From contig JAKVAZ010000006.1 of the NCBI GenBank assembly GCA_022447225.1, positions 558,001-622,000 on the forward strand: a stretch of 64,000 nucleotides of DNA. Direction: 5' to 3'. This document shows, piece by piece, positions 15,918 through 18,552 of the stretch. Each line of letters starts with the position of its first letter. Positions within the stretch are counted from its first letter, which is position 1. This DNA comes from Fuerstiella sp. Its GTDB lineage: Bacteria > Planctomycetota > Planctomycetia > Planctomycetales > Planctomycetaceae. A program made the translations under genes and the position numbers. The notes beneath the pieces are model-generated. The model had not been told where the DNA came from and ran no database searches. It saw only the letters and a program-made list of their open reading frames with translations.

Positions 15918-17033
15918 TCAATTACCTGAACGCTGCGTCAATGTTACGTGAGAATCATCCCTGCCTGTCCTGGATGAACTTCTTTTGGCTGTCCGTAACG
16001 AAGTACGTGACCAGCCACCGGATTTAGCGGTTGTCAGTGGGGAATCTCCGGCGGGAAGAACCATTTTCTTTGGATCGCTGGAGACACCGCCGTCGAAATT
16101 CTCAATCGTGTCCAGTGGGACCATTTCCCGTGATTTACTGGAACGGTGATAATGTCCGTCATGATCAACACCCTCTCCGTCATCAGCAAACGGTGCTTTT
16201 TCATCATTGTCCCGACTGGCAGAACGCTGAAAACTGGGATCGGGTTCGGGATTTTGTGCCGTTCGGCTGTCTTCGATGATCGGCGCGAACGCCACCGCAC
16301 TACCCGGTGCGTAGCCGCCGTACCCGTAAGCCAGTCGACTGCCGATGGGAACTGTTCGGTAGGCTGTCTGAGGTCTCATAACCGTAACGACGCGGTTGCG
16401 ATACTCCAGCTTTTGAACAGCCACACGTTCTGTTGTTTTGTGAGCCACCATTTTAGTTTCATTGACGGACACTCGACGCGTTCCACGAACAGCCACCTGC
16501 CTGGTTACCGGAACCGTGCAGGCCATCATTTTGGGCACATACTGGCGAGACGTGTAGTATTTGGGTGTAAATGAAGATCGAAACGCGTAGCCGGTACGAT
16601 TAAGCCAGCCAATCACTCCCGGCCGTGCATCCACCTGGCAGGGAGACATTTTTTGAGTTGGCGTGTAGCGAGTAATCCAGCGTCCCATGTCACGCGTTAC
16701 CGTACGGTGCTCAGTAACATTCTGATACGACAGCGTAGGAATCTCGATTTCACGTTGAGTCGTCACCGGCCTCATCGCCGTCACTTCGCGGTCTTCATAC
16801 GTCGTTCGGTAATACGGCTCGCGAACAGTCTGCTTTTCGCGACGAAATGTGGTGACCGGCACCTGCTGATAACAGGTCGTCTGTACAGGCTGAATCGGAA
16901 CACATGAAGCAACCGGCGGGGCACCCACGCCGCAGTCGGAACAGCCATCTCCGAAATACTGGGCGTTTGCCGCTGACATACTCAGGACGACAGCCGTAAT
17001 GAGAGCAGCACGGAACATCTGGCTGGGAAACAT
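15918..17033 (-). CDS. Secreted YTV-like repeat protein
   Basis: A 371-residue exported protein. The signal peptide ends near SAANA (about residue 24). A Cys-rich patch follows (DGCSDCGVGAPPVASC). The middle (about 55-240) is built from imperfect repeats such as VTTFRREKQTVREPYYRTTY, VTAMRPVTTQREIEIP, VTRQVAVRGTRRVSVNET and VVTVMRPQTAYRTVP. These resemble the YTV repeat first described in Rhodopirellula. The C-terminus (about 270-371) is hydrophilic and probably disordered. AGGGAAG stands about 9-12 bases before the ATG, and a strong terminator follows the gene. Envelope or surface location is likely; function unknown. Confidence 0.8.
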   Translation of the reverse strand: MFPSQMFRAALITAVVLSMSAANAQYFGDGCSDCGVGAPPVASCVPIQPVQTTCYQQVPVTTFRREKQTVREPYYRTTYEDREVTAMRPVTTQREIEIPTLSYQNVTEHRTVTRDMGRWITRYTPTQKMSPCQVDARPGVIGWLNRTGYAFRSSFTPKYYTSRQYVPKMMACTVPVTRQVAVRGTRRVSVNETKMVAHKTTERVAVQKLEYRNRVVTVMRPQTAYRTVPIGSRLAYGYGGYAPGSAVAFAPIIEDSRTAQNPEPDPSFQRSASRDNDEKAPFADDGEGVDHDGHYHRSSKSREMVPLDTIENFDGGVSSDPKKMVLPAGDSPLTTAKSGGWSRTSLRTAKRSSSRTGRDDSHVTLTQRSGN

Positions 17034-17589
17034 AGCGTTTTCTTCCCTGAAAGGACTTTTCTTCTCGCGCAGCAGCCAGCGCAGGTGTTGACTGTGTCGA
17101 GAGACAGGAGGGACTACCGAAGCGAATGATCCCCGTCAGTTACTCATGTTCATCCGCGAACATGAGCTGGGAATTTCGAATCCGGTGAGATGGTTTGAAG
17201 GTTGAATGGTTTTAGAGGTAAGCCGAAGAAGATATGCCGAAAGGTTGGCCGCAAACGCGAGAAATGGAGTAAACAAGCGTAAACACGTGGCATGTGGCTG
17301 AATTTGCCGAGATGTGTACCCCGTGCAGGGGTGATGTATCGGATCCTGTTGAATTGCGTCAAGGCCGTTTGAACGCACTTAAGCCAAACTTCTTTTTTCG
17401 TACGAATCCGACCATTCGCAGCTTCACGAACGGTGTACAAACCGGCAGATTCTGCCGTCCGTGCCTGGATCAATTTGCTCCGCGCATCAGCCTGCTCTGC
17501 ATCGACACAGGAAATATCACAGCATGGATCTTCTGCTCCATCGGGAAACACTGCAGCGTATCTCCTTCCGATCACATAGCCACCGCACG
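17034..17589. other. Long intergenic region, left part
   Basis: Open frames exist on both strands (for example minus 17150-17575) but none has a signal peptide, a conserved motif or a convincing ribosome site, so I do not call a gene. The region should hold the promoter of the leftward YTV-like gene. Confidence 0.4.
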
Positions 17590-17626
17590 AAAAAAGGCTG
17601 ATCGGATTCTTAAGATCCGATCAGCC
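17590..17626 (-). terminator. Strong hairpin with minus-strand T-run
   Basis: GGCTGATCGGAT (17596-17607) pairs perfectly over 12 bases with ATCCGATCAGCC (17615-17626) across a 7-base loop. Six A residues at 17590-17595 become a T-run after the stem on the minus strand. No minus-strand protein gene lies upstream of it, which points to a non-coding transcript. Plus-strand use is possible but has only TCTTTCTC after the stem. Confidence 0.65.
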
Positions 17627-17800
17627 TCTTTCTCATTCGCCGAGGTTGCACAGTTTCTCAGGCTGCCAACCTCACATTAACAGACAGGCCCGTTTCTCAC
17701 GCGGGCCACCGTCTCTCTCAGTTTGCCGCACCTGTAAGCGGCGGCGCCGACATCTCACATCAGCGCGACCCGGGATCTCAACTCCAGGTCAGTCTCTCTC
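17590..17800 (-). ncRNA. Candidate structured RNA: tandem hairpins
   Basis: A run of hairpins ends at the terminator above when read on the minus strand. Visible stems are GAGGTTG/CAACCTC (17642-17673), GGCCCG/CGGGCC (17687-17707), GCCGC/GCGGC (17725-17742), and GACC/GGTC with inner GGA/TCC (17767-17790). Three of the loops contain the same word, TCTCA on the plus strand (TGAGA on the minus): at 17656-17660, 17695-17699 and 17776-17780. Further copies at 17631-17635, 17716-17720 and 17753-17757 give irregular spacing of about 20-40 bases. It does not match tmRNA, RNase P or SRP RNA by eye. The right end of the transcript is not defined. Strand is inferred from the terminator only. Confidence 0.35.
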
Positions 17801-18078
17801 GAAAGAATCCTTAAGCAACACTGATGCCAAAACCAGTTGATCCAGGACCACGCAGGTCGGGGACGGGGACAAAAACACGCAGGAAGACTGAAAATTTTCT
17901 GTCCAGCCGCCTTTCCTGTTTTTTTTTTTCGTCACCGAACCGGAACGCTACGTAATAGCTCAATTGCATATTCTACAATCTTCGGACGGTGAAAAGATTA
18001 CAATGCAGTCCTTATCATTCCACAGAGGTTCACCTTACTGACCTGAACAAAATCAGACACATGCCGGAATTTCCGATA
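17801..18078. other. Intergenic region with T11 tract
   Basis: Contains eleven T at 17919-17929, preceded by a possible 6-bp stem CAGGAA/TTCCTG with a long loop. No gene is seen. It should include the tadA promoter and, if the RNA at 17590-17800 is real, its upstream part on the minus strand. Confidence 0.4.
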
Positions 18079-18552
18079 ATGGACCCTCTTCATCCGCATG
18101 ACCACTGGATGAAACGCGCACTCGACCAGGCCGTAGCTGCATACAACTCCGAAGAAGTCCCGGTGGGGGCGGTTATTACATACGAAAATCAAATCATTGC
18201 TGCGGCCCACAATCAGCGTGAAACACTCAACGATCCGACGGCTCATGCAGAAATGATTGCAATCACCCAGGCAGCTGATGCTTTGGGGTCATGGAGATTG
18301 CTGCAATGTACACTGTATGTCACTCTTGAACCCTGCCCCATGTGTGCCGGAGCTATTGTGCAGGCTCGACTTCCCTGTGTGGTCTATGGCACCAGTGATC
18401 CCAAAGCAGGAGCATGCAACTCGCTGTTTAACATCACCGGAGATAGCCGTATGAATCATCAGGCCGCCGTGCTGGGTGGAGTGATGCAGGAAGACTGCCG
18501 GGCGATCCTGCAGCAGTTTTTCCGGGAACAGCGGACATTGGGGAAGAAATAA
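18079..18552 (+). CDS. tadA: tRNA-specific adenosine deaminase
   Basis: A 157-residue zinc deaminase that converts A34 to inosine in tRNA. The zinc and catalytic motifs are clear: HAE (PTAHAEMIA), then EPCPMCAGA with the two Cys ligands. VPVGAVI and NDPTAHAEM match TadA rather than cytidine deaminase. The start at 18079 ([18 protein letters not shown]) aligns with the N-terminus of known TadA; upstream ATG (18061) and GTG (17989) are in frame but would add an unusual extension. The CPBP protease gene begins 7 bases after the stop, so they form an operon. Confidence 0.95.

Follow-up and report, generated by a model that had tools for sequence, protein, structure and literature searches.

Predicted sigma-54-dependent small RNAs with repeated (U/G)GAGA loops in the Planctomycetaceae: candidate sponges for an RNA-binding protein

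The question raised by a 64,000-nt stretch of a Fuerstiella sp. genome (assembly GCA_022447225.1, contig JAKVAZ010000006.1, positions 558,001 to 622,000; hereafter the window) is what is encoded by some 210 bases of tandem hairpins lying beside a tadA-type deaminase gene. An initial annotation, made from the letters alone, had proposed a new structured RNA on the minus strand at positions 17590-17800, and these coordinates proved a close fit to the gene delineated here, the parts and neighbours of which are as follows.

17590..17803 (-): sRNA gene; the T-run is its 3' end, and its 5' start is placed near 17803 from the promoter, 12 nt past the GC of the -12 element
17792..17800 (-): 5' single-stranded GAGAGAGAC
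17767..17790 (-): hairpin H_A, 7 bp, loop AGUUGAGAUC; a GGA straddles the stem-loop border
17744..17766 (-): hairpin H_B, 7 bp, loop UGUGAGAUG
17725..17742 (-): hairpin H_C, 5 bp, loop UUACAGGU without UGAGA; varies between relatives
17711..17720 (-): linker UGAGAGAGAC
17687..17707 (-): hairpin H_D, 6 bp, loop CGUGAGAAA
17642..17673 (-): hairpin H_E, two-part stem, loop CCUGAGAAA
17627..17637 (-): linker AAUGAGAAAGA
17590..17627 (-): intrinsic terminator, 13-bp stem and T-run, read directly
17815..17831 (-): predicted sigma-54 promoter TTTGGCATCAGTGTTGC (-24/-12), pattern GG[CT]A[CT]N6TGC
17964..17978 (-): putative activator (enhancer) dyad TTGTA-GAATA-TGCAA
17989..18003 (-): probable degenerate second dyad TTGTAATCTTTTCAC, 25 bp farther up, recognised because double sites in relatives are likewise 25 bp apart
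18061..18552 (+): tadA-type deaminase gene, a divergent neighbour outside the system; start taken as ATG 18061, the first possible start of the frame being 17989
15918-17033 (-): ORF without a Pfam match, on the other flank of the RNA gene

The word UGAGA occupies 9-10-nt loops on four stems (H_A, H_B, H_D and H_E), with H_C as one further stem, and there are three GAGA-rich linker stretches, namely GAGAGAGAC and the two linkers proper; in the predicted folds the loops and linkers, which have GAGA in common, are for the most part single-stranded. The repeated loops noticed initially are real, with the word on four stems rather than the three first counted, and the terminal stem, given as 12 bp, has 13 bp. 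TGAGA is at its densest here, with six starts in 206 nt on one strand, the next best place in 1,262,000 bases of the same genome having four. Over 246 nt the minus strand folded at -105.9 kcal/mol compared with a shuffled mean of -80.6 (z = -5.05), and none of 200 dinucleotide shuffles was as stable. The opposite strand gives an equally good fold (z = -5.15), and a simple terminator scan assigned the last repeat to the plus strand alone (1 found vs 2.5 expected in shuffles), so the choice of strand rests on promoter, T-run and conservation, and the minus-strand terminator was read from its stem and T-run. On the RNA strand of the window copy, the gene encloses no ORF of ≥30 aa.

Two syntenic homologues were recovered by blast, one with a fold that none of 200 shuffles equalled (G001, z = -3.83) and one with a less striking fold (G002, z = -2.38, 4/200 shuffles as good). 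The first blast matches of 26-38 bases (L006, L007 and L008) had no RNA around them, L006 lying inside and L008 beside a protein gene. The window copy and the two syntenic homologues served to build a covariance model (R1) that begins at the first GAGAGA, extends through the last linker and contains no promoter. At E ≤ 0.1 it found matches in 37 of 170 family genomes, of which we kept the 27 at E ≤ 1.9e-6, a set that includes the three training genomes. The matches outside this set were L036, L037, L038 and seven at E 0.0165-0.0614; L036 and L037 were dropped for absent promoters and unrepeated hairpins, and L038, with one UGAGA hairpin and no sigma-54 box in the stretch shown, was not used.

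In the full-length MAFFT alignment (A7) of 26 of the 27 copies (L030, a near copy of L029, was omitted from this and from alignment A8), 96.4% of the cells in the H_B and H_D stems were paired, a value that fell to 39.1% or less when the partner was slid by 1-3 columns. Nine of the 12 pairs had changed on both sides, as had 36 cells compared with 9.2 in shuffles, which ignore relatedness. The loops, meanwhile, were held: UGAGA is present in H_D in all 26 rows, in H_B in 24 (L010 has UGAGG, and L018 is without it) and in H_A in 24 (missing from L026 and L034), while the length of the 9-nt loop and the position of the word within it are fixed in 24/26 rows for H_B and 26/26 for H_D on stems that drift. 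Each copy has three to seven UGAG(A/G) words. No reading frame is common to the 27 copies, whose ORFs of ≥30 aa differ in frame, strand and length, and a small-protein gene was rejected on this ground. Compensatory changes in the stems, which the initial annotation had suggested looking for, are thus present with unchanged loops, and conservation as nothing more than a protein-coding frame, the reverse outcome that it had named, was not seen; with homologues in hand, its proposal of a new structured RNA on the minus strand was borne out. We regard the locus as almost certainly a real structured RNA gene, the structure, promoter and dyad motifs, terminator and family distribution of which can be read from sequence.

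The annotation had also placed the RNA upstream of tadA. This is true at 15 of the 23 loci with flanks and is incidental: tadA was not found at the other eight (at one of them, L054, the contig stops ~330 bases upstream), which argues for the RNA being a gene of its own. The product of the ORF on the other flank (15918-17033) looks secreted and has a Cys-rich N-terminal motif; its homologues were found by clustering near the RNA at 11 of the 23 loci, also at L004 and L005, and in other genera they occur on the far side of tadA.

Beyond anything predicted initially, the RNA is preceded by sigma-54 promoter and activator motifs. Although the promoter had been excluded from model R1, through which the copies were obtained, the box GG[CT]A[CT]N6TGC was found in 27/27 copies examined, and the first GAGAGA-like word stands 14-16 nt behind the GC of the -12 element in 25 of these, just past the expected start; L033 and L035 have GAGAGCAA in its place. 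Farther upstream, all 27 copies have one to three dyads of the form TGTA-N5-TRCA (45 sites), located -133 to -202 from the sigma-54 box and often paired 25 bp apart, compared with a mean of 0.25 sites and a maximum of 3 in 500 mononucleotide shuffles. The word first emerged from a count of recurring words in these 27 sequences themselves, which makes the shuffle test after the fact. In the genomic background, the UAS-plus-promoter pattern occurred in 49/170 genomes against 15/170 for the reversed pattern, and the promoter-plus-AGAGAGA pattern gave 54 against 3. By its layout, the dyad is a putative site for a sigma-54 enhancer-binding activator.

How widely the RNA occurs was assessed with a second model (R2) built from 26 training sequences and extending from the promoter to H_D. 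R2 matched 58 of 170 family genomes at E ≤ 0.01, with 30 strong matches at E ≤ 1e-18, three of which (G071, G147 and G150) were in genomes not among the R1 matches. Class-wide, 32 of 397 genomes were matched, 31 of them within the family. A second R2 match in the RNA's own genome (G000:C7, L089), together with L104, L106 and L107, was judged by eye to be due to chance or to protein genes. The H_D pattern retrieved 11 stretches from a named genome collection, ten of them in MAGs titled Planctomycetota, Planctomycetaceae, Planctomycetales, Planctomyces or Fuerstiella. The eleventh (L208, CAMAVB010000020.1) is in a MAG titled Candidatus Kuenenia stuttgartiensis, a title that looks like a mislabel of a genome of this family.

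Weak R2 matches, and places combining the dyad with a sigma-54 box, brought to light a sister subtype, which the initial annotation had not foreseen. Like the window RNA, these sister RNAs have the sigma-54 box, in many cases the TTGTA-N5-TRCAA dyad and in some members a 5' GAGAGA; unlike it, they have another terminal hairpin and core loops that read, among 19 aligned, AGGGAGA (7), UGGAGA (9), UGGAGG (2) or UUGAGAA (1), with GGA held in 18 of the 19. Twelve of the 19 also have CACCUC outside the two helices, a word which we take to resemble the anti-Shine-Dalgarno end of 16S rRNA. The two sister helices are 96.6% paired, with 64 cells changed on both sides compared with 20.9 in shuffles; the number of pair types was reached by 20 of 500 shuffles and the other measures by none.

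A model of the 19 sister RNAs devoid of promoter sequence (R3), from which L092, L097, L099, L101, L102, L245 and L254 were left out, found matches at E ≤ 1e-5 in 74 of the 170 family genomes; of the 74, 55 were outside the training set, 73 have a single match and G172 has two. None of these 74 genomes is among the 30 with strong R2 matches, so one or other subtype is present in 104/170 genomes and neither in 66 at these thresholds. Class-wide, R3 matched 74 of 397 genomes, of which 62 belong to the family and 12, outside it, are weak (E 6.7e-6 to 8e-4). The 30 R3 loci fetched had a sigma-54 box in 29 cases and the dyad in 26; for the 17 that lie outside the R3 alignment (two of which, in G189 and G169, had come earlier through promoter-using searches) the counts were 16 and 15, the single missing box being at a locus with a cut flank. 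Because the dyad came from the 27 UGAGA-type copies, its recovery at R3 loci is a more independent check than the shuffle test. The dyad is not universal, since only five of 13 weaker R2 loci had it within 260 bases of the box and eight were without it.

In some genomes, G080, G011 and G189 among them, a weak R2 match overlaps a strong R3 match. Two sequences bridge the loop words: L092 has CCGGAGAAA in an H_D-like hairpin, and the core hairpin of L257 shows UUGAGAA in place of the GGAGA of its sisters. Eight of the 20 places with dyad and box (L243, L244, L246, L247, L248, L250, L255 and L258) were found by eye not to be the RNA. One further locus, L101 (G023:C198), is a sigma-54 RNA in which some five stem-loops show, by eye, UUGGAGAG, and comes near a textbook CsrA sponge.

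When one loop is repeated unchanged while the stems beneath it drift, the RNA is characteristically one that offers binding sites to a single partner, and the anatomy of this RNA, as predicted, fits titration of a loop-binding protein. The core bound by CsrA is GGA (PMC4894983), and csrA was present in all 170 family genomes in 3-17 copies each. The window's genome (G000) has six (L142, L146, L150, L154, L158 and L161), belonging to types A-F that we sorted by eye and that are common to four genomes in three genera (G000, G002, G160 and G068). Type F (L154, L162, L160 and L163) has a conserved C-terminal SDQ(F/Y)PHVA and, ~100 nt upstream in 4/4 genomes, a sigma-54-like box (TGGCAC...TCGC or ...TGGC) first seen by eye and then found with a loosened pattern, its -12 element being TCGC or TGGC and not TTGC. 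With the loosened pattern, one csrA paralogue of G080 likewise had a sigma-54-like box 123 nt upstream. For types A-E no such box was common to the four genomes, and a match was seen at one of 20 genes (L156). Four of five regions upstream of csrA-F have the dyad TTGTC-N5-GACAA, and none (0/5) has that of the RNA; because the two differ, a shared activator is unsupported, and csrA-F is possibly under sigma-54 control by another activator. A published sigma-54 scan of Planctomycetia reports that CsrA genes (COG1551) are over-represented among the targets it predicts (PMC12316311). Possible target sites, in the form of UGAGA presented by a 9-nt loop on a stem, numbered six in 1,262,000 bases (a 23% genome sample), two of them in the RNA itself, at 28.1 per 10,000 occurrences of the word; this rate is second among 30 anagrams and becomes ~19 without the RNA's own two. 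An excess of UGAGA hairpin targets was not clear in this sample, and hence no target set is claimed.

The explanation that we favour is a free-standing, trans-acting sRNA of ~210 nt, which would be transcribed only once an enhancer-binding activator seated on the TTGTA-N5-TGCAA dyad has opened the sigma-54 RNA polymerase. The recurring (U/G)GAGA loops, together with the GA-rich linkers, would be sites for one RNA-binding protein, and the RNA, when made, would draw this protein off its mRNA targets in CsrB/CsrA fashion. The bound protein would most likely be a CsrA paralogue: CsrA is the prime suspect because family genomes have so many csrA genes and because sister RNAs show GGA where the window RNA shows UGA. 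Set against this is the loop word itself, since GGA occurs only twice in the window RNA (once where stem and loop of H_A meet and once in the terminator stem) and is absent from the loops of H_B, H_D and H_E; the initial remark that the word is not the GGA motif of CsrA therefore holds for three of the four UGAGA loops, H_A alone keeping a GGA. Judged from motifs and folds, a sigma-54-activated sRNA titrating a CsrA paralogue, with its predicted transcription, protein binding, CsrA identity and titration, is the best explanation, and we put its chances slightly above even; that the RNA is a protein sponge of some kind we consider likely. More tentatively, a Csr-type system may have changed its RNA code, the sponge sites having gone from GGAGA to UGAGA in g1, g6, g54, g55 and g73 and a CsrA paralogue having followed, a scenario that is conceivable and somewhat unlikely. 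If it is true, the multiplied planctomycete csrA genes would include proteins with different target words, each such CsrA being paired with a separate sponge that answers to a separate sigma-54 activator.

The same kind of sponge could have a partner other than CsrA, for instance a SpoVG-like or unknown RNA-binding protein reading (U/G)GAGA loops. Such a partner would account for UGAGA loops that lack the GG of a CsrA site in three cases out of four, and SpoVG is described as binding the apical loop of a Listeria noncoding RNA and is likened there to CsrA (PMC4959528). The GGA kept in 18/19 sister core loops, however, is as CsrA would predict, and CsrA is both present and multiplied in every family genome; we hold a non-CsrA partner to be a serious yet unlikely alternative. 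Alternatively, the RNA may act by base pairing, its GA-rich loops and linkers annealing to UUUCUCA or UCUCUC in mRNAs or other RNAs and the repeats raising avidity. The GAGA shared by mostly unpaired loops and linkers would suit this, as would the CACCUC of 12/19 sister RNAs, with its likeness to the anti-Shine-Dalgarno sequence. Loop length and word position, on the other hand, are fixed (24/26 in H_B, 26/26 in H_D) while the stems drift, as expected for a protein reading a presented loop, and base pairing as the main mode of action seems to us improbable.

That the stretch is a DNA element or a by-product, such as a spacer separating tadA from the adjacent gene or a terminator that the two share, with no functional RNA, is scarcely credible. 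In its favour, the simple scan picked up the terminator-like repeat just on the plus strand and at no more than the chance rate (1 vs 2.5); it is contradicted by covarying stems with fixed loops, by promoters in 27/27 copies (25/27 at fixed spacing) and dyads in 27/27, and by conservation at the eight of 23 loci where tadA was not found alongside.

With a sponge as the favoured reading, the closest known systems are of two kinds. CsrB/CsrC and RsmX/Y/Z are the CsrA-titrating sRNAs of gammaproteobacteria. As in CsrB and RsmZ, the window RNA is a separate gene with stem-loops repeating one word, the same word again in linkers and an intrinsic terminator, in a genome with CsrA genes (six in G000); it differs from them in its loop word, which in three loops out of four is UGAGA and not GGA (the sister subtype does have GGA), in its predicted sigma-54 promoter with an enhancer dyad, and in the lack of an Rfam match. 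CrcZ and CrcY are Pseudomonas sRNAs that sequester Hfq under the control of sigma-54 and CbrB. The likeness here, at the level of motifs, is a sigma-54 promoter and upstream activator site before an RNA with repeated sites for one protein. CrcZ sites, however, are A-rich unpaired motifs (AANAAYAA), which have no occurrence in the 214-nt window RNA, whereas the word of the window RNA sits in stem-loops. The mechanism would thus resemble CsrB as a sponge and CrcZ in its sigma-54 control; since GGA loops and A-rich motifs were both looked for and neither characterises this RNA, we assign it to neither class. The Qrr sRNAs of Vibrio share the sigma-54 promoter and intrinsic terminator, but they use a single conserved region to base-pair with mRNAs, with the help of Hfq, whereas the window RNA repeats its loops on different stems. 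6S RNA, being one long hairpin with a central bulge, was ruled out by the separate small stem-loops and the lack of an Rfam match.

At gathering score, Rfam 15 gave no match in the window. At E ≤ 10, positions 17300-18100 gave eight weak matches, none to a bacterial sRNA family; the miRNA, snoRNA and lncRNA families among these (E 0.054-7.7) score far below their gathering scores and were taken as chance. The loci of 12 relatives gave no Rfam match at E ≤ 0.5. Among the titles and opening lines of abstracts listed by literature searches, mostly of non-subscription journals, no description of such an RNA in planctomycetes was found; planctomycetes are named once among 104 candidate RNAs in the part of the paper covered (PMC2864571).

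A family of RNAs in 104/170 genomes, with promoter, activator site and structure in hand and in hosts with 3-17 csrA genes, makes three matters directly testable: the binding targets of the many CsrA proteins, the signal that would act by way of sigma-54 to turn on a widespread RNA of sponge type, and whether the target word of a CsrA can change.

A few loci with related promoter motifs were seen along the way. L090 (G143) and L091 (G148), of genus g73, are second related loci with a sigma-54-type box and UGAGAAA hairpins, and the TTGTA dyad is absent within 260 bases upstream of them. L104 (G189:C32) has, by eye, the sigma-54-type box TGGCACGCTGTTTGC and a GA-rich leader before a dnaK-like frame. 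In genus g34, a similar dyad and sigma-54 box precede a shared membrane-protein-like frame (L243, L244, L246 and L248, by eye), which is a possible second target of the same activator.
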